From Phaeobacter sp. B1627 (GTDB lineage: Bacteria > Pseudomonadota > Alphaproteobacteria > Rhodobacterales > Rhodobacteraceae), in NCBI RefSeq assembly GCF_006265095.1, contig NZ_VCNK01000014.1, positions 124,001-188,000 of the forward strand: 64,000 nt of DNA, given 5' to 3'. A model generated the notes under the pieces. It made no database searches. It had not been told where the DNA came from and saw only the letters and a list, made by a program, of their open reading frames with translations. Positions within the stretch are counted from its first letter, which is position 1; every line of letters begins with the position of its first letter. Below are positions 1,503 to 42,327 of this stretch, piece by piece. The position numbers and the translations under genes were made by a program.

Positions 1503-2666
1503 TCAGACCACCGGCTGTGCTTTCTCCACCAATCGGGCGAAAAACGACGCCCCAACGGGCGCGATGGCATCGTTGAAATCATAGTCCGGATGATGCAGGC
1601 CGGCTGTCTCTCCCTGACCGAGGAACAGATAGGCGCCGGGGCGGGCCTGCAGCATATAGGCAAAATCCTCCGCCCCCATTTCGCGCCCCCCGTCGGCCTC
1701 GACCTGCGAGGCCCCGGAGATATCGCGCGCCACATCTGCCGCAAAGGCCGCCTTTGCCGCGTCGTTGATGGTGGCGGGGTAGCCGACCTCATAGTCCAGC
1801 TCCGCACGGACGCCATAGGCCACCGCACAGCCTTTGACGATCTCGTCCAGACGGGTCATCACCATGCGCTGGACATCAGGATTGAAGGTCCGGATCGTGC
1901 CATTGATAAAGGCGGTTTCGGGGATCACATTGTCCGCCGTGCCGGTATGGATCTGAGTGACAGAAATCACCAGATCCTCGGTTGCGTGGTGGTTGCGGCT
2001 GACGATGGTCTGAATGGCCTGCGCCATGCCACAGGCGGCCATGACCGGATCCCGGGTTTCATGCGGCATTGCCCCATGCCCGCCCAACCCGGTGATATGG
2101 ATGGTGAACGTGTCGACTGCCGCCATCAGAGGGCCCGGCGCTGTCAGAAATGCCCCCTCCGGCAGGCCGGGTGAATTGTGCAAAGCGTAAACTTCAGCGA
2201 TGTCAAAGCGGTCCATCACCCCCTCTTCGACCATAATGCGGGCTCCGCCCGTGACCTCTTCGGCGGGTTGGAACAACAGCGCCACACGGCCCGCAAAATT
2301 GCGCGTCTCTGCCAGATACCTGGCCGCCCCCAACAGCATCGTGGTGTGGCCGTCGTGGCCGCAGGCATGCATGTTTCCCGGATGCGTGGACCGGTACTCC
2401 GCCCCCTCCGGCTCGGTGATCGGCAAGGCGTCCATATCGGCCCGCAGCCCGATGGTCGGCCCCTCGCCGCGGCCGTTGATAATCGCCACGATCCCGTTGG
2501 AGGCAATCCCGCCATGGATTTCGTCGACACCAAACCCTTCAAGGATTTCCGTGACATAGGCGGCGGTCTTCACGGTCTCCAGGCCCAGTTCGGGGATCTG
2601 GTGCAACCGGCGCCGCCAGATCTTCATATCCTCAGAGAAATCGGCAATACGATTGACGACCGGCAT
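1503..2666 (-). CDS. M20 family amidohydrolase (hippurate hydrolase-like)
   Basis: A 387-residue zinc-dependent aminoacylase/carboxypeptidase of the M20D type. Metal-site motifs HACGHDGH (about 100-107) and QPAEE (about 133-137) are present, as is the dimerisation-domain segment with GHGAMPHETRDP. Enzymes of this group release amino acids from N-acyl or N-benzoyl amides, or from IAA conjugates. The start at MPVVNR was preferred over an upstream in-frame codon because AGGAG lies about 8 nt before it. The gene heads the leftward ureohydrolase group and is divergent from mazG, with 62 bp between the starts. Substrate not determinable from sequence. Confidence 0.85.
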   Translation of the reverse strand: MPVVNRIADFSEDMKIWRRRLHQIPELGLETVKTAAYVTEILEGFGVDEIHGGIASNGIVAIINGRGEGPTIGLRADMDALPITEPEGAEYRSTHPGNMHACGHDGHTTMLLGAARYLAETRNFAGRVALLFQPAEEVTGGARIMVEEGVMDRFDIAEVYALHNSPGLPEGAFLTAPGPLMAAVDTFTIHITGLGGHGAMPHETRDPVMAACGMAQAIQTIVSRNHHATEDLVISVTQIHTGTADNVIPETAFINGTIRTFNPDVQRMVMTRLDEIVKGCAVAYGVRAELDYEVGYPATINDAAKAAFAADVARDISGASQVEADGGREMGAEDFAYMLQARPGAYLFLGQGETAGLHHPDYDFNDAIAPVGASFFARLVEKAQPVV

Positions 2667-2728
2667 GGGGTGGACTCCTGTAAGATAGTCGGGAAAATGC
2701 ACATCACCACACAACGCAGGCAGGTGCA

Positions 2729-3550
2729 ATGAGTGACGACAGTCTGATCCACGACGAGACGGCAGGTATCGAACGGCTGCTGAAAATCATGCAACGGCTG
2801 CGCGACCCGGACACCGGATGCCCCTGGGATATCGAACAGGATTTCGCCTCTGTCGCCCCCTATACCATCGAAGAGGCCTATGAGGTCGCCGATGCGATCG
2901 AGCGCCGGTCCTGGTCCGAGCTGAAGGGGGAATTGGGGGATCTTCTGTTTCAGTCGGTGTTTCATGCCCAGATGGCCGATGAGGCGGGATATTTCAATTT
3001 TCAGGACGTGGTCACCACCATGTCGAACAAGATGGTGTCGCGCCACCCGCATGTTTTCGGAAACGAAGACCGCGAGAAATCCGTCGACCAGCAAGCGCAG
3101 GACTGGGAGAGGATCAAAGCTGCCGAGCGCGCGTCGAACGCCCAATCCGGCGCCCTTGACGGCGTGGCCGTTGGCCTGCCTGCGCTCCTGCGGGCCTTCA
3201 AATTGCAAAAACGCGCCGCGCGGGTCGGATTTGACTGGCCCTCGGCGCAGAATGTTCTGGCCAAGATTGCCGAGGAATCTGCCGAGTTGGTCGAGGCCCG
3301 CGAGCAGCTCAGTCAGACCGAAGTCGAAGAAGAATTTGGCGATCTGCTGTTCGTGATGGCCAATCTCGGTCGTCATCTGGGCGTCGAACCAGAGGCCGCC
3401 CTGCGCCGCACAAATGCAAAATTCACGCGCCGGTTCACCGCCGTAGAGGAAAAACTTGCGGCAATCGGAAAGCGCGCGGAGGACAGTGACCTCGACGAAA
3501 TGGATGGTTTGTGGAACCAGGTCAAAGCCGAAGAAAAATCCCGCAACTGA
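2729..3550 (+). CDS. mazG: Nucleoside triphosphate pyrophosphohydrolase MazG
   Basis: A 273-residue two-domain MazG protein that hydrolyses (d)NTPs to monophosphates and pyrophosphate, a housecleaning role. The all-alpha NTP-PPase signature appears in both halves: EEAYE (48-52) with ELGD (68-71), and EESAE (182-186) with EFGD (202-205). It matches E. coli MazG in length and layout. It is divergent from the amidohydrolase and is followed by a 156-bp gap before the nucleoside hydrolase, so it is probably its own unit. Confidence 0.93.
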   Translation: MSDDSLIHDETAGIERLLKIMQRLRDPDTGCPWDIEQDFASVAPYTIEEAYEVADAIERRSWSELKGELGDLLFQSVFHAQMADEAGYFNFQDVVTTMSNKMVSRHPHVFGNEDREKSVDQQAQDWERIKAAERASNAQSGALDGVAVGLPALLRAFKLQKRAARVGFDWPSAQNVLAKIAEESAELVEAREQLSQTEVEEEFGDLLFVMANLGRHLGVEPEAALRRTNAKFTRRFTAVEEKLAAIGKRAEDSDLDEMDGLWNQVKAEEKSRN

Positions 3551-3706
3551 CCGCTCCGCCCACTGACTGCCCCGCCCGCAGGATGCAAGCGATAGCTGCC
3601 CCTAAATCAATCAGGCTGACGGAGTACCCCGCCCTTTTGGGCAGCGCCGCTCTGGACAAGCCATCGCAGGCTTGACACTGTCCCCCCTCAGCCAACGGAG
3701 ACCACA

Positions 3707-4648
3707 ATGAGAGCGCGTAAAATCATCATCGATACCGACCCCGGACAGGACGACGCGGTCGCCATTCTGCTGGCTTTGGGGTCGCCGCAGGACATCGATC
3801 TCTTGGGGATTACCACCGTGGCCGGGAATGTGCCGCTGGCGCTGACGCAAAAGAACGCGCGGATCGTTTGCGAGGTCGCAGAGCGCCGGGATGTGAAGGT
3901 CCATGCGGGCTGTGCGGCCCCGCTTGAGCGGGCCTTGGTGACGGCCGAACATGTCCACGGCAGAACCGGGCTGGACGGGCCGGAGCTGTTTGAACCGACC
4001 ATGGCTCTGGCGGAGCAGAACGGTGTCGATTTCATCATCGAGAGCCTGCGACAGGAGGCCCCCGGGACGGTGACGCTCTGCCCGCTCGGCCCTCTCACCA
4101 ATATCGCCGCCGCCTTTCGCAAGGCGCCGGACATCATCGGACGGGTGCAGGAAATCGTGCTGATGGGCGGGGCCTATTTCGAGGTCGGCAACATCACCCC
4201 CGCAGCCGAATTCAACATATATGTCGACCCCGAAGCCGCCCGCGAGGTTCTGGGCTGCGGTGTTGCCGTCACCATGATGCCGCTGGATGTGACCCACAAG
4301 GCGCTGGCCACCCCGGCCCGGGTGGCCGCCTTTCGCGATCTCGGCACCCGTGTGGGCAGCTTCACCGCCGATATGCTTGAGTTCTTTGAACGCTTCGATG
4401 TGGAAAAATACGGGTCCGAAGGCGGCCCCTTGCATGACCCATGTGTCATTGCCTACCTGATCAGGCCCGAGCTTTTCTCGGGGCGGCATGTGAATGTCGA
4501 GGTGGAGACCGCCTCCGAGCTGACCCTGGGCATGACCGTCGCCGACTGGTGGGGGGTCACGGATCGCAGCCCGAATGCGATGTTCATCGGCGATGTGGAA
4601 GCGGATGGCTTCTTTGCCCTGCTGACCGAACGTCTGGGTCGGCTATGA
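3707..4648 (+). CDS. Inosine/uridine-preferring nucleoside hydrolase family protein
   Basis: A 313-residue calcium-dependent N-ribohydrolase, cleaving ribonucleosides to base plus ribose. The diagnostic N-terminal aspartate cluster DTDPGQDD is at residues 9-16. A C-terminal LHDPC segment near residue 242 supplies the usual active-site His and Ca-ligand Asp. Length is typical of IunH/RihA proteins. ACGGAG precedes the ATG. The last codons overlap the start of a GNAT gene by ATGA, suggesting co-expression. Purine or pyrimidine preference cannot be judged. Confidence 0.9.
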   Translation: MRARKIIIDTDPGQDDAVAILLALGSPQDIDLLGITTVAGNVPLALTQKNARIVCEVAERRDVKVHAGCAAPLERALVTAEHVHGRTGLDGPELFEPTMALAEQNGVDFIIESLRQEAPGTVTLCPLGPLTNIAAAFRKAPDIIGRVQEIVLMGGAYFEVGNITPAAEFNIYVDPEAAREVLGCGVAVTMMPLDVTHKALATPARVAAFRDLGTRVGSFTADMLEFFERFDVEKYGSEGGPLHDPCVIAYLIRPELFSGRHVNVEVETASELTLGMTVADWWGVTDRSPNAMFIGDVEADGFFALLTERLGRL

Positions 4649-5094
4649 GCGCCTCGCTGCATCTTGCGGGCCCGGATGATCTGGAAAAGCTGCTGACTCT
4701 GGTGGCCAGTTTTCACGCCGAATGCGGCATCGACAGCACCGAGGAGCAACGCCGTGGCGCGCTGCTGCCACTGCTCGAAGGGATCCCCTATGGCGCGATC
4801 TATCTGATAGGCCCGGCCCGCGCGCCCATCGGCTATCTCGTCATGACCTTCAGCTGGTCGGTGGAATTCGGCGGGCTGGACGGGATGATAGACGAGCTGT
4901 TCATCCGGCCCGCAGTGCGGGGGCGCGGCATCGCAACCGAGGTTCTGCACGCCCTGCCCCGAACCCTCGGCGAAGCAGGCGTTGGTGCGATACATCTCGA
5001 AGTGGACCGCACCAACGAGGCCGCAATGAAGCTGTATCGGCGCGCCCGTTTCGAGCCGCGCGCGCAATATATGCTGATGAGCCGCAGGCTGTAG
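4645..5094 (+). CDS. GNAT family N-acetyltransferase
   Basis: A 149-residue GNAT protein. The acetyl-CoA pyrophosphate loop is visible as VRGRGIA (about 90-96), followed by the usual helix and the motif-B segment EVDRTNEAAMKLYRRARF. The start was set at the ATG inside the nucleoside hydrolase stop (ATGA); an open frame continues upstream only as an overlap. The acetyl acceptor is unknown. Coupling to a nucleoside hydrolase suggests, without proving, a small-molecule substrate. Confidence 0.85.
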   Translation: MSASLHLAGPDDLEKLLTLVASFHAECGIDSTEEQRRGALLPLLEGIPYGAIYLIGPARAPIGYLVMTFSWSVEFGGLDGMIDELFIRPAVRGRGIATEVLHALPRTLGEAGVGAIHLEVDRTNEAAMKLYRRARFEPRAQYMLMSRRL

Positions 5095-5139
5095 CCCGGG
5101 CTCAATTTTCAGCGTTCTCCTCAGTTTCCAGCGATCCGC

Positions 5140-5610
5140 TCAGTCTTGGGCGATCATCCCTGTGCCACTGGCGGCGGCGATTTGCTCGTCGCCAAGGGCG
5201 AACAGAATGGCGCAGGCCCCGTCACAGGCATGGCCCGCCGCCATCACCGTGGCGAGACGCACACCATGCTCCTGCGCCACGGCCAGAAGCCCCGCAATCC
5301 GCCGGGCCGCCGCCTCATCTCCGCCTGTGCCCGCCAGCCAGAGGGCGATGGGCGCATATCGCGGCTCTTCGAGCATGGCAGTTTCAAAGAGATGCAGGAA
5401 GGCGCCATAGTCGATCGCCTTCACTTCGCCATCAAGACGCAGACCACCCGGAACCCTGCTCCAACCGGCCTGCGCCTCCTGTCCTGACAGGGCGGTTCCA
5501 GACAGCGCAGTGCCAGACAGGGCGGTGCCAGACAGGGCGGCGCCAGACAGCGCGGTCCCGCAGATAAAACTCGCCATAAGAACCGCTATCAGTCGCGTTC
5601 CACGATACAT
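5140..5610 (-). CDS. Small secreted ClpP/crotonase-fold-like protein with TALSG repeat
   Basis: A 156-residue protein with an N-terminal signal-like hydrophobic stretch (RLIAVLMASFICG), then five TALSG-type pentapeptides (about 19-43) encoded by a 15-bp tandem repeat. The rest resembles periplasmic ClpP-like proteins of the COG3904 type. It has a GGDEAAARRIA helix and a C-x-x-x-C segment (CDGAC), where relatives usually have Ser before Ala-Cys. The change to Gly suggests loss of catalytic Ser. The start was chosen at MYRGT because GGAGG lies 8 nt upstream. Function unknown; probably exported. Confidence 0.6.
   Translation of the reverse strand: MYRGTRLIAVLMASFICGTALSGAALSGTALSGTALSGTALSGQEAQAGWSRVPGGLRLDGEVKAIDYGAFLHLFETAMLEEPRYAPIALWLAGTGGDEAAARRIAGLLAVAQEHGVRLATVMAAGHACDGACAILFALGDEQIAAASGTGMIAQD
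5486..5560. repeat. Five tandem 15-bp units inside the ClpP-like gene
   Basis: Five consecutive 15-bp units, the first being gacagggcggttcca. Copies differ by one to four bases. They encode the TALSG/AALSG pentapeptides just after the signal-like segment. The unit is a multiple of three, so copy-number change would not break the frame. Confidence 0.95.
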
Positions 5611-38310: not shown

Positions 38311-38634
38311 ATGCAACTGCCCCCAAAAGTGACGGATCGTGCCTTTGATCAGCTGGCCGTGATCGGGGCTGCCGATCAGGGTCAGGCCCTGCGCATCGCC
38401 GTCGAAGGCGGCGGCTGTTCCGGATTTCAGTACGAAATCGCGCTCGACACCCAAAAACCCGATGATCTCGTGCTGGAAGGCAAGGGTCAAAAAGTCGTGG
38501 TGGATGAGGTTTCGCTGCCGTTCCTCGAAAACGCCGTCATCGACTTCACCGAAGAGCTGATCGGGGCACGTTTCACAATCGAGAATCCCAATGCGACCTC
38601 AAGCTGTGGCTGCGGCACCTCGTTCTCCATGTAG
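38311..38634 (+). CDS. erpA: Iron-sulfur cluster insertion protein ErpA (A-type carrier)
   Basis: A 107-residue HesB/IscA-family carrier of Fe-S clusters to apo-enzymes. The three cluster cysteines are C36 (GGGCSGF) and C99 and C101 in the C-terminal SSCGCGTSFS. The position divergent from dgt is standard in alphaproteobacteria, where this copy is named ErpA or IscA. Confidence 0.93.
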   Translation: MQLPPKVTDRAFDQLAVIGAADQGQALRIAVEGGGCSGFQYEIALDTQKPDDLVLEGKGQKVVVDEVSLPFLENAVIDFTEELIGARFTIENPNATSSCGCGTSFSM

Positions 38635-38719: not shown

Positions 38720-39730
38720 TTACCGGCCCGCTCTCCAGGCGCCGCGCCGCGTTTGCATCTCATCCGAAGGCGTCCCGCCCCGCATGCGTGACCGCCCGCG
38801 TCGGCTGACCGGCGCAGGCGACAGAACCTGTGGTGCCGCGCTCTCCTCCCGTGAAGAAGCCGAGCGCCCCGCGCCCGCAGATTGCATCTGATCCCACACC
38901 AAAAAGACCCCGGAGGCGGCCACGACCGCCATCCCCAAAAAGGTCGAGACCAGTGGAATTTCACCAAAGGCGACAAGGCCGATCAGGGTCATCCAGACGA
39001 ACTGCAGATTCAAAAGAGGCGCCACCGTATAGGCGGGCAGATGCCGCAGCGCCAGCACCAGCAACCAGCGGGCGCCGAACAACAGGACCGCATAGGCCAC
39101 AACCCAGCCGCAATCCAACAGCGTCATCGGCCGCCACACGAAGGGCAACAGGCACAGCATAACCAGACCCAGGGTGAGATTCGGATAGAACACCTGCGCG
39201 AGCACATTGCTGTCGTAGCGACTGACGTAGCGCGCCATGACGATCGACAGCGTGCCGAAACTCATGCCCCCCATCGCCAGGACGGAGCCACGCACCCCGC
39301 CCACATGCACCCCCGGCTGCATCACCAACAGCCCGACCACGCCGACACAGAGCGCAAGCCAGACCGCAGGGCGAATACGTTCCTTGAGGATCAGCCCCGA
39401 CAACAGCGCCGCCATCAACGGCATCAGGGCGACAAAGACAAACACCTCTGCCAGCGCCAGATAGCGAAACGCATAGTAAAAACACGTACAGGCCAGCACC
39501 GTCGCCCCTGCCCGCACCGCCATGCCCCCCGGGCAGCGCGTGCGCAATCGATCAGGGTGCCCCTGCACCCGGCTGGCCGCGAAACAGAACCCGGCCACCA
39601 ACAGCCCCGACACCGCGAACAACTGCGCCGGGGCAAATCCGGCGGCCATGAATTTGGTGATACCGTCTGCTGCCGCAATCAGCCCGGTATAGGCGAACAC
39701 CGCCAATATACCATGGGCCAACAGCCTCAT
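38720..39730 (-). CDS. EamA/DMT family permease (last gene of the SSTC-peptide operon)
   Basis: A 336-residue inner-membrane protein with about ten hydrophobic helices in two EamA repeats, and a C-terminal Arg/Ser-rich tail of about 45 residues. DMT proteins of this kind usually export amino acids or small metabolites. The start MRLLAHGILA overlaps the stop of the preceding 354-residue protein by ATGA, so the two are tightly coupled. By position it is the likely exporter for whatever the peptide operon makes. Confidence 0.82.
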   Translation of the reverse strand: MRLLAHGILAVFAYTGLIAAADGITKFMAAGFAPAQLFAVSGLLVAGFCFAASRVQGHPDRLRTRCPGGMAVRAGATVLACTCFYYAFRYLALAEVFVFVALMPLMAALLSGLILKERIRPAVWLALCVGVVGLLVMQPGVHVGGVRGSVLAMGGMSFGTLSIVMARYVSRYDSNVLAQVFYPNLTLGLVMLCLLPFVWRPMTLLDCGWVVAYAVLLFGARWLLVLALRHLPAYTVAPLLNLQFVWMTLIGLVAFGEIPLVSTFLGMAVVAASGVFLVWDQMQSAGAGRSASSREESAAPQVLSPAPVSRRGRSRMRGGTPSDEMQTRRGAWRAGR

Positions 39731-40791
39731 GCAGAGCCAACCTGGCCGAAACGGGCGAAGGTCTCGAAGAATGGTTCGAACAGAGGCGTGCTGTGTTCGG
39801 CCCGGTGCACCACGTTGCGATCCTCGACGCTCAGCGTCTCCAGCAGCGGATCGCGGACCCGCAGCCACCCCCCCGGAGCCTCATCAAGCAGAGTATAGAG
39901 GGCCATGGACATTCCCCTTAACGCACCGGAGCCACGCGGCCCCTCGATCATTACCGACCCTGTGCAGTCTGCCTGAGAAAAAGCCTCGCGTCCAACCAGA
40001 CGTTGAAACCAATTGCACATAAGGTAGGGATGGTAGTCGTCCTGCCCCACCCGGCCCTGCGCCGGGCGCAGCGTGAAACGCGCCGTTCTTTGCCCGAGCC
40101 AGTCCTGCCAGTCCTGCGGCGGGGTCTCGTTGCAGAAGACCAGCGCGATACAGATTTCCGCCAGCAGATCCGCATCCTGATCCAGATAGGCCACCAATCC
40201 CGCAAACAGCAGGCTTTGATGTTCCTCCCGGTCCAGCGCCAGCGGCGCCCGGCCGTATTCCGTCAGGTAGAACACAATATGGGTCAATTCATAGGCCGCC
40301 TTGCGATTGGGCACCGCAAAGCTGCGGCTCTGCCGCATGAAGGCGCGCAAACGGTCGTCCAGCCCATCGACACCGGTCAGCTCGACTCCGCGCCGCGCCA
40401 GCAGGCGCCGCGCCTCCGCCCGCTGCAGATCCGATAACTCGCCTGCTGCGATATCCTGTCGCGCGATCCAATCGGCCATCACCTCCGCCCGCGCCCCCGG
40501 CAGCCCCAGATCCTCAAGGTCGAGACAGATCGACAGGATGAACCGGTAGTATTGGCGAAAGAAATTCAGATGTCGCAAACTGCCTTCGTAAAATGGCAAA
40601 AGCGGCTCCAGCGCCAGCATGGGCGTTTTACAACCTGACGTTTCTAAAACGTTCAGCAGCTCCGCATTCTCCTTCAGCCAGAGCACATCCAGCCGATCCT
40701 TTCGAAACGAGGCGAAACTATCGATCAATTGCGGAACAAGCGCCTGAGAAGACCGCGCCCGCGCTGCGGAAAAGGAAACAACCTGACCCAT
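39727..40791 (-). CDS. Uncharacterised protein of the SSTC-peptide operon
   Basis: A 354-residue soluble, mainly helical protein without any fold I can name. Visible features are a conserved-looking helical core (about 50-150, with FFRQYYRFILSICLDLEDLG). Then come AYELTHIVFYLTEYG and a Cys/Glu segment EICIALVFCNETPPQDWQDW. A C-terminal His/Trp region contains HPYLMCNWFQRLVGREAF. HIVFYLTEYG and YHPYLMCNW could hold catalytic or metal residues, but no known motif is met. It lies 105 bp downstream of the peptide gene and overlaps the permease. It could be the modifying enzyme, a binding partner or an immunity protein; I recall Roseobacter homologues listed only as unknown. Confidence 0.75.
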   Translation of the reverse strand: MGQVVSFSAARARSSQALVPQLIDSFASFRKDRLDVLWLKENAELLNVLETSGCKTPMLALEPLLPFYEGSLRHLNFFRQYYRFILSICLDLEDLGLPGARAEVMADWIARQDIAAGELSDLQRAEARRLLARRGVELTGVDGLDDRLRAFMRQSRSFAVPNRKAAYELTHIVFYLTEYGRAPLALDREEHQSLLFAGLVAYLDQDADLLAEICIALVFCNETPPQDWQDWLGQRTARFTLRPAQGRVGQDDYHPYLMCNWFQRLVGREAFSQADCTGSVMIEGPRGSGALRGMSMALYTLLDEAPGGWLRVRDPLLETLSVEDRNVVHRAEHSTPLFEPFFETFARFGQVGSA

Positions 40792-40827
40792 TCGATCCTC
40801 AATTCGTCAATTTCTGAAATCATAGAC

Positions 40828-40856
40828 GAGTGACCCGAAAATATTTCGGATCACTC
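40828..40856 (-). promoter_or_regulatory. Hairpin between peptide gene and its downstream partner
   Basis: Near-perfect inverted repeat: GAGTGA and TCACTC outer arms, CCGAAA/TTTCGG-type inner arms, AT loop. It sits in the 105-bp space between the peptide stop and the 354-residue gene. No U-run follows on the minus strand. This fits an mRNA-stability or processing element that lets the peptide be made in excess. Confidence 0.6.
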
Positions 40857-40896
40857 CTGCCACAGCAATGCGCTGCTCAGTATTCCGCTCTCTGGC

Positions 40897-41118
40897 TTAC
40901 TTTGCGGTCTCAAGGCAGGTGGACGACACCATCTGCGTTGCGTCGCCGGAGTGCATGTCGCTCTGCGATTCTGAAATACACGTGGAACTATATAGGGATA
41001 CCTGTGACCCGGCATGCTCCCCCCCGAGGCAGGTCGAGCTGAACAAGCCGACATTCTCACCTGCGAAAGCACCTGTTTCGGCAGGAACCGCGACATATGT
41101 TTTTTTCAAAGCAACCAT
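40897..41118 (-). CDS. 73-residue peptide with three SSTC motifs (putative precursor peptide)
   Basis: A small, well-formed gene: ATG eight bases after GGAGAGA, 73 codons, TAA. The N-terminal 26 residues (MVALKKTYVAVPAETGAFAG then ENVGLF) look like a leader. The rest contains SSTC three times, at 27-30, 44-47 and 65-68, each after a hydrophobic pair (LF, LY, MV) and before L or I. The only three cysteines lie in these motifs, spaced 17 and 21 residues. Repeated Ser-Ser-Thr-Cys cores behind a leader resemble RiPP precursors. No lanthionine synthetase, radical SAM, YcaO or DUF692 gene is adjacent. A metal- or redox-binding small protein is the alternative. Confidence 0.75.
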   Translation of the reverse strand: MVALKKTYVAVPAETGAFAGENVGLFSSTCLGGEHAGSQVSLYSSTCISESQSDMHSGDATQMVSSTCLETAK

Positions 41119-41520: not shown

Positions 41521-42327
41521 ATGAAGATCGCCAGTTTCAACATCAACGGCATCAAGGCCCGCCTCAATGCGCTCGGGGACTGGCTGGACGAAGCCCAGCC
41601 CGACGTCGCCGTGCTGCAGGAGATCAAATCCGTCGATGAGGCCTTCCCGCGCGAGATGATCGAGGACCGCGGCTACAATCTGGAAACCCACGGTCAAAAA
41701 GGGTTCAACGGGGTGGCGATTCTGTCAAAGCTGCCGCTTGAGGATGTGCAACGCGGTCTGCCCGGCGACGACAGCGACACCCAGGCCCGATGGATCGAGG
41801 CGACGGTCGTGGGCAAGCAGGCGATCCGAATCTGCGGCCTCTATCTGCCCAACGGCAACCCGGTCGAGCTGAACGCGGATGGCAGCCCGGTTGCGGGCGG
41901 GAAATACGCCTATAAACTTGCCTGGATGGAGCGCCTCAGGGCCCGTGCAGAGGCGCTTTTGGCGGAGGAGATGCCCGCCTTGATGGCCGGGGACTACAAT
42001 ATCATCCCCCAGGCCGAAGATGCCAGCCGTCCCGAAGTCTGGCGCGACGACGCGCTGTTTCGGCCCGAAAGCCGCGATGCATTCCGCAGAATCGTCAACC
42101 TCGGCTTCACCGAAGCCTTTCGCAGCCGCACCCATGGCCCGGGCCACTACACGTTCTGGGACTATCAGGCAGGCGCGTGGAACCGCAACGACGGCATCCG
42201 CATCGACCACTTTCTGCTGAGCCCGCAGGCGGCGGATCTGTTGCTGGACTGCCAGATCGACAAGGACATCCGCGCCCGCGAGAAACCCTCCGACCATGTG
42301 CCGATCTGGGTCGAACTGGACCTCTGA
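41521..42327 (+). CDS. xthA: Exodeoxyribonuclease III
   Basis: A 268-residue AP endonuclease/3'-5' exonuclease of the ExoIII family, in base-excision repair. Active-site pieces are FNINGIKAR, E34 in LQEIK, D158 and N160 in GDYNIIP, and D258-H259 in SDHVPIW. The start ATG gives the canonical MKIASFNING. It is divergent from the peptide operon. Confidence 0.96.
   Translation: MKIASFNINGIKARLNALGDWLDEAQPDVAVLQEIKSVDEAFPREMIEDRGYNLETHGQKGFNGVAILSKLPLEDVQRGLPGDDSDTQARWIEATVVGKQAIRICGLYLPNGNPVELNADGSPVAGGKYAYKLAWMERLRARAEALLAEEMPALMAGDYNIIPQAEDASRPEVWRDDALFRPESRDAFRRIVNLGFTEAFRSRTHGPGHYTFWDYQAGAWNRNDGIRIDHFLLSPQAADLLLDCQIDKDIRAREKPSDHVPIWVELDL

Follow-up and report, generated by a model that had tools for sequence, protein, structure and literature searches.

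A probable multi-core RiPP-type cassette in roseobacters: repeated-pentapeptide precursors paired with the DUF6902 protein family

Introduction

Precursors holding several cores split by spacers are known from the cyanobactins and from the fungal dikaritins, and the LanC-type cyclases use an alpha/alpha toroid to act on peptides. Here we describe a locus of Phaeobacter sp. B1627, lying in a 64,000-nucleotide stretch of contig NZ_VCNK01000014.1 (the whole stretch analysed is called the window), in which the gene for a 73-residue repeated-core peptide precedes that for a 354-residue protein of the family DUF6902. The locus probably yields a multi-core, RiPP-type peptide (ribosomally synthesised and post-translationally modified peptide), with DUF6902 modifying each core. 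It has multiple spacer-separated cores per precursor, as do cyanobactins and dikaritins, and differs from them in that no core-excising protease is encoded nearby and all core copies switch together between related species. The modelled alpha/alpha toroid of DUF6902 is shared with the protein prenyltransferases, which act on peptides and proteins. Unlike prenyltransferases and LanC cyclases, DUF6902 has no sequence relative in the PDB, and the cores beside it are mostly without Cys.

Two further comparisons concern epimerases. MslH, a lasso peptide epimerase, is reported to act on a ribosomal precursor through two His/Asp acid-base pairs, within a calcineurin-like fold that holds a Ca ion (PMC10406935). 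DUF6902 and the related family DUF6895 conserve two His together with acidic residues, a likeness to MslH by analogy only, whereas the modelled toroid of DUF6902 sets it apart from a calcineurin-like fold with Ca. A DUF6895 member is an epimerase in lasso-peptide modification, according to the title of a report (Shi et al. 2026) in the reference list of PMC13352647. DUF6902 and DUF6895 are alike in a profile match (residues 72–228), in invariant E, Y, H, G, D, E and Y residues and in the small peptide gene ahead; the DUF6902 system differs in having its own repeated-pentapeptide precursor family and a fixed chromosomal site, and lasso genes were not found beside the window copy. A search of one literature collection found no paper on DUF6902 or on these core sequences. 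RiPPs as such are already known, and DUF6895 has one report; there is a fair chance that the cassette founds a RiPP class.

Results

A peptide gene and a DUF6902 gene occur together

The locus is made up of three genes on the minus strand, in the order peptide, 105 nucleotides (nt), DUF6902, EamA:

40897–41118, minus strand: precursor-like peptide, 73 residues; an open reading frame (ORF) whose same-site homologues share its three-unit layout
39727–40791, minus strand: DUF6902 protein, 354 residues, putative tailoring enzyme; Pfam profile and toroid model
38720–39730, minus strand: EamA permease, optional member and candidate exporter; PF00892, E 9e-17

An initial annotation, made from the bare sequence, had described a peptide with Cys only in SSTC motifs, followed by a 354-residue protein of no known fold and by an EamA permease coupled through ATGA, and had read the set as a possible RiPP locus. 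The peptide does hold only three Cys, each within SSTC, and the EamA ORF, starting at 39730, does overlap the DUF6902 stop as ATGA. From a leader-like start the peptide runs into three units with the cores FSSTC, YSSTC and VSSTC, and three xSSTC cores, in a peptide upstream of DUF6902, are retained in all seven close relatives (loci L057–L063). The window peptide matched no Pfam family and gave one NCBIfam match far under cut-off; none of three homologous peptides reached any curated cut-off.

Of 198 genomes sampled from the family, 55 (~28%) carry DUF6902, as do 16 of 18 genomes of the window's genus and 4 of 289 genomes of a class-wide sample, one of these (G217) falling under the curated cut-off. 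Direct reading placed a repeated-core peptide gene upstream in 53 of the 55 family genomes; the other two are G139, cut by a contig end, and G039, which has no peptide. When a multi-core peptide was used as query against the 198 genomes, 44 were matched, 43 of them DUF6902 genomes (Fisher p 2.6e-31). The forty-fourth match (G003; E 3.5e-4, 21% identity, in a 402-residue frame) is unlike a repeated-core peptide, as judged from the match alone, and 12 DUF6902 genomes, the window's own included, were missed by this query. Within the genus, all 15 DUF6902 genomes uncut by a contig end have the peptide, and the peptide search gave no match in the two genomes without DUF6902.

A second scan searched named genome contigs for two DUF6902 motifs and kept the best 80 of 357 relatives, whose titles name roseobacter-type Rhodobacterales or unassigned Alphaproteobacteria. 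All 80 loci have a repeated-core peptide gene upstream of DUF6902, including four cut by a contig end (L083, L084, L117, L125) and one holding Ns (L080), each of which still shows cores. The record closest to the window is an alphaproteobacterial metagenome-assembled genome (L057, 88% identity), followed by Tritonibacter species. No relative of the window DUF6902 protein was found on plasmids.

The peptides are regular arrays of five-residue cores

Repeat architecture was measured on 109 unique peptides, left from 125 detected among 127 loci after peptides with identical last 60 residues had been merged. Peptides seen by eye at L023 (where a run of N interferes) and at L025 (removed by a filter on Arg) stand outside these counts, as do 22 later peptides (L193–L214) except that of G055, already counted as L161; the L112 core was shifted by one residue for the anchor, tree and spacing analyses. 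A peptide carries 2–20 cores (median 7), and the unit period is 20–21 residues in 615 of 662 spacings. In each unit, G-[DE]-x-x-x-[MLA] leads into a five-residue core of the general form F-[ST]-S-x-x. Ahead of the core, the commonest residues are G at −6 (97%, a figure partly built in, as unit picking used a G at this distance), D/E at −5 (83%), V/T at −3 and M/L/A at −1; within it, F stands at position 1 (86%), S/T at 2 and S at 3 (92%), with positions 4 and 5 variable. The second residue past the core is P in 79%. The stretch ahead of the first core has a median length of 33 residues and contains M-x-A-[LQ]-x-K in 68 of the 109 peptides, and in 72 the fifth core residue is also the last residue of the protein. 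Outliers far from the F-[ST]-S form are YIAGL and MMCCS, each in two copies, at L193 and L195.

The co-occurrence and the varying core number for which the initial annotation proposed to look are both seen: a short precursor with leader and cores is conserved beside a cognate enzyme gene, as in RiPP loci.

All cores of a peptide change together

SSTC is local to the window and its relatives; elsewhere the cores are FSSGS, FTSGL, FTSWS, FTTSC, IMSAS and others. Most homologues accordingly keep the DUF6902 gene without an SSTC peptide, a finding that the initial annotation had named as speaking against its RiPP reading. That is literally the case, but another repeated core stands in the place of SSTC, and the RiPP reading is therefore helped.

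Within a peptide the cores are nearly uniform: all are identical in 75 of 109 peptides, and positions 2–5 are identical across copies in 106. Among the 92 peptides with at least four cores, within-peptide identity was 0.98 for the core, 0.31–0.35 for the spacer and 0.55 at core third codon positions, with a mean of 6.4 different DNA versions per 7.9 cores, while core identity between peptides was 0.57. The low third-codon identity and the many DNA versions indicate that core sameness is kept at the protein level and does not reflect recent duplication alone. As the core picker favours similarity, a control used GD/GE anchors blind to the core: 653 of 806 anchored stretches matched the peptide's majority core at positions 2–5, and the majority 4-mer fraction was 0.81 at the core offset versus 0.28–0.37 at offsets −10 to −1, with a peak only there. 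Mismatching anchors are in part GD or GE pairs within spacers. A chance repeat is ruled out by these identity statistics together with the core-blind control.

Positions 2–5 of the core take 28 states, and a tree of the enzyme (98 labelled rows, quickly built, with several of its long branches flagged) requires at least 36 changes between them, a raw minimum with no null. Four Marivita records illustrate such changes with similar spacers: L078 and L123 carry FTSGS, L104 FTTSC and L135 IMSAS. In the window's genus, three- or four-unit peptides carry SSTC or SSGS cores, and in two divergent members just two cores, SSTV- or SSTC-like, can still be recognised. These shortened or decaying arrays (L177 in G203, VSSTV with TSSLN; L178 in G208, ISSTC and VSSTC) lie beside long-branch DUF6902 genes.

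Several arrays are mixed. L213 runs FSSGS, four [FY]STSC and FSSGS; L209 has two FTTSC and one FSSGS; and L202 has three FTSSS and one FTSGS. Two core types in one array were also seen at L161/L214. All of these are apparently transition states of core replacement.

DUF6902 is a relative of DUF6895 with a predicted toroid fold

The 354-residue protein is not the orphan that it had seemed. It matches DUF6902 (PF21843) over residues 1–347 of 354 (430.6 bits, the cut-off being 27; E 5.1e-129) and clears the threshold of DUF6895 as well (PF21836; 71.4 bits, cut-off 23.8; E 1.1e-19), with residues 72–228 on profile positions 74–235 of 289. All 31 proteins of a DUF6902 alignment match both families (DUF6895 at E 0.001 or better), and hhalign joined the two profiles directly (probability 93.6, E 2e-7, columns 78–269). 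For this protein the absence of a known RiPP-modifying family was borne out, as it matched no classical RiPP enzyme family among Pfam and NCBIfam profiles.

A structure model of good quality (predicted local distance difference test score, pLDDT, 90.7; predicted template modelling score 0.90) suggests an alpha/alpha toroid. VIA-align paired it with class II terpene cyclases, prenyltransferase beta subunits and complement thioester domains, all of which we take to be alpha/alpha toroids (best Z 12.4, mostly over residues 12–271); LanC was not among the matches listed, which excludes nothing. Among the 31 proteins, 41 of 84 residues in every second helix (36–51, 79–94, 121–132, 163–176, 207–219 and 253–265, leaving out the short helix 155–159) are invariant; for the helices between them the count is 10 of 82 (p 2.7e-7), so that the conserved set would be the inner helices of the modelled toroid.

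Across the two families none of the 12 aligned rows departs from E44, Y167, H171, G180, D208, E212 and Y253, and H254 is nearly invariant, one row being truncated; six of the proteins are DUF6895 members, taken from five genomes that share the window's phylum and from a Pseudalkalibacillus plasmid. By its conservation, the polar set E44/Y167/H171/D208/E212/Y253/H254 looks catalytic. All seven of these residues are replaced in the divergent DUF6902 of G039 (L192), which retains W38, N42, Y82, D121, R124, R292 and W309. That gene occupies the customary position, flanked by xth- and erpA-like genes, with the erpA start no more than ~20 nt from its end, and neither peptide nor EamA was found there. 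G039 is thus a natural control, in a single case, in which the absence of the peptide goes together with loss of the seven shared polar residues.

Small peptide genes also precede DUF6895 genes

Seven DUF6895 loci outside the DUF6902 group were read (L150, L151, L152, L155, L158, L159 and L160), and in each a small ORF on the same strand precedes the gene. Homology to at least one other of these peptides, above shuffled controls, was seen for L150, L151, L152 and L160; it is weak for L159 (E 0.007, with one shuffle at 0.011) and unclear for L155 and L158. Internal repeats (GPWYIYKE/GPWFVLKE and similar) were seen by eye in the L151, L152 and L159 peptides. L160 is a plasmid of Pseudalkalibacillus hwajinpoensis (NZ_CP156675.1; Bacillota) with a homologous 86-residue peptide upstream of its DUF6895 gene, and by these sequences the peptide–enzyme pairing crosses phyla. 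With small peptide genes ahead of DUF6895 genes too, peptide partnership seems to be a feature of the superfamily.

Two other members were seen in passing. At L158 (G633; ORF 2539–5250), a 903-residue protein combines DUF6895 with an APH-type phosphotransferase domain, and a small ORF lies directly upstream. The 362-residue DUF6895-like protein of G217 (L216) has the motif YxLTH...DYG, and the 78-residue ORF upstream of it resembles DUF6895-type peptides by eye.

Interpretation and competing explanations

Taken together, these data make it likely that the peptide is a multi-core substrate of a tailoring enzyme; that the locus as a whole yields a RiPP-type product through modification of each core by DUF6902 is only slightly less so. 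Of the RiPP reading in the initial annotation, the conserved unit of precursor-like peptide and enzyme-sized partner, the short leader and the repeated cores have stood; SSTC as an essential feature and EamA as a fixed part have not.

In the mechanism that we propose, the precursor would be translated and DUF6902 would bind a unit via its G-[DE] flank. Each core would then enter the toroid cavity, where the E44/Y167/H171/D208/E212/Y253/H254 set would modify it, with position 3 of the core (92% Ser) as the favoured site. Release would fall to a general protease, with cleavage placed at the core end because many precursors stop exactly there, and EamA, where present, might export the cores. As to the chemistry, epimerisation of a core residue is the likeliest single reaction, at somewhat short of an even chance, and is favoured because of DUF6895 kinship and because position 3 of the core varies among S, T, C and N. 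In its invariant residues (E44, Y167, H171, G180, D208, E212, Y253) DUF6902 agrees with the family of the reported epimerase. The product may be a signal, a toxin or another secreted peptide, and is unlikely to be a fixed redox cofactor, since the core varies; lineage-specific core change is what we would expect of a recognition molecule.

We also entertain, as a speculative possibility, a wider picture: a new roseobacter class of multi-core RiPPs that release many copies of one pentapeptide, probably with a D-residue, as a lineage-specific signal or toxin, the core 'barcode' being switched in all copies by internal repeat turnover with little change to the enzyme. DUF6895 proteins, with their own homologous precursors from Alphaproteobacteria to Bacillota, would then belong to a wider superfamily of toroid peptide epimerases.

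Several points weigh against the main interpretation, a modified multi-core precursor. The link of DUF6895 to epimerisation comes from a title alone, and the shared fold is not confirmed, the DUF6895 structure model being poor (pLDDT 57.5). The two profiles align at a probability of 93.6 with the C-terminal YH pair left unaligned. The toroid assignment depends on a VIA-align Z of ~12, which might reflect merely a common arrangement of helical proteins, and Foldseek against the PDB and viral models returned nothing at E 0.001. G039 is one case, and many of its other positions are altered too. The cassette holds neither a protease nor a dedicated ABC exporter, and in 10 of 80 loci no EamA match follows DUF6902, with erpA 24–135 nt behind it instead. 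Some arrays have two cores only, and mixed arrays occur in three of the 22 later peptides (L202, L209, L213). Finally, the 80 loci come from a motif-based scan, which would miss degenerate DUF6902 copies.

Among the alternatives, the one that survives best keeps the RiPP-like pair and gives DUF6902 another core reaction, such as Ser/Thr dehydration, acylation, glycosylation or a prenylation-like transfer. Of the 109 peptides, 105 have S or T at core position 3, and prenyltransferase beta subunits are among the toroid matches; yet the rarer cores with C or N at position 3 (FTCGA, FTCGL, FTNWC), along with YIAGL and MMCCS, suit a reaction tolerant of the side chain, Cys prenylation is unlikely with most cores lacking Cys, and a DUF6895 relative is reported, by title, as an epimerase. 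We consider this alternative unlikely.

It is less probable still that nothing is modified, with DUF6902 serving as a binding, chaperone or regulatory partner and the cores as docking motifs of a scaffold peptide. The regular 20–21-residue spacing would suit a scaffold, and toroids are able to bind peptides. A docking motif, however, is not expected to switch in all copies between related species, DUF6902 is kin to a family reported to modify peptides, and its catalytic-looking polar set is lost along with the peptide in G039.

The Cys-based metal-binding or redox peptide with an associated permease, offered as the other option in the initial annotation on the strength of three regularly spaced Cys, is scarcely credible and was rejected, because a Cys core occurs in only 20 of 109 unique peptides and FSSGS replaces the Cys cores in some members of the window's own genus.

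If the preferred reading of a modified multi-core precursor is true, ~28% of sampled family genomes hold an unrecognised peptide-modifying system at one site, and two domains of unknown function become tied to peptide modification. It would also offer a simple two-gene platform, with an enzyme family tolerant of very different cores, and a natural experiment in concerted core evolution, in which related species share enzyme and spacers and differ in cores.

The cassette occupies one chromosomal site

Three further features of the window frame or lie within the cassette:

38311–38634, plus strand: erpA-like iron-sulphur biosynthesis gene, flank; PF01521, conserved cassette neighbour
41521–42327, plus strand: xth-like gene of the exonuclease/endonuclease/phosphatase family, other border of the site; PF03372, conserved neighbour
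40792–40896, minus strand: 105-nt gap between peptide and DUF6902 genes with a strong hairpin (z −2.16), by folding

The conserved order is xth-like, peptide, DUF6902, EamA, erpA-like, dgt-like and argS, where names of flanking genes follow the Pfam family if one was matched and are otherwise presumptive. In the 80 loci of the second scan, similarity matches were obtained for erpA in 78, dgt in 77, xth in 73, EamA in 70 and argS in 67, each in one orientation. Loci without an xth match are L083, L084, L105, L114, L117, L125 and L129; in six of these seven, upstream sequence is scant or absent. In 70 of the 80 loci EamA begins no more than 400 nt behind DUF6902. In nine genomes without DUF6902 that were examined, xth and erpA lie 36–1163 nt apart in unchanged order, and in two congeners without DUF6902 the site is empty, with an xth–erpA distance of ~70 nt. 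Such a pattern would be expected if a compact cassette had been either gained or lost at a single site.

By profile, the window neighbours are EamA, Fe-S_biosyn, HD, Exo_endo_phos, FAD_binding_3, DksA, AAA, arginyl-tRNA synthetase and a SPOR protein. Lasso cyclase and protease/RRE (RiPP recognition element) genes were not found among the neighbours scanned, and the locus does not qualify as a lasso cluster. A PADLOC search gave no defence-system match, and a tRNA was the sole match of an Rfam scan of the window.

Among ten peptide/DUF6902 gaps that were folded, the hairpin is strong in the window, L058 and L059 and is not generally conserved; an alignment of eight gap sequences was poor, with similar stems in some close relatives only. 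Where it occurs, this intergenic hairpin could set the ratio of precursor to enzyme.

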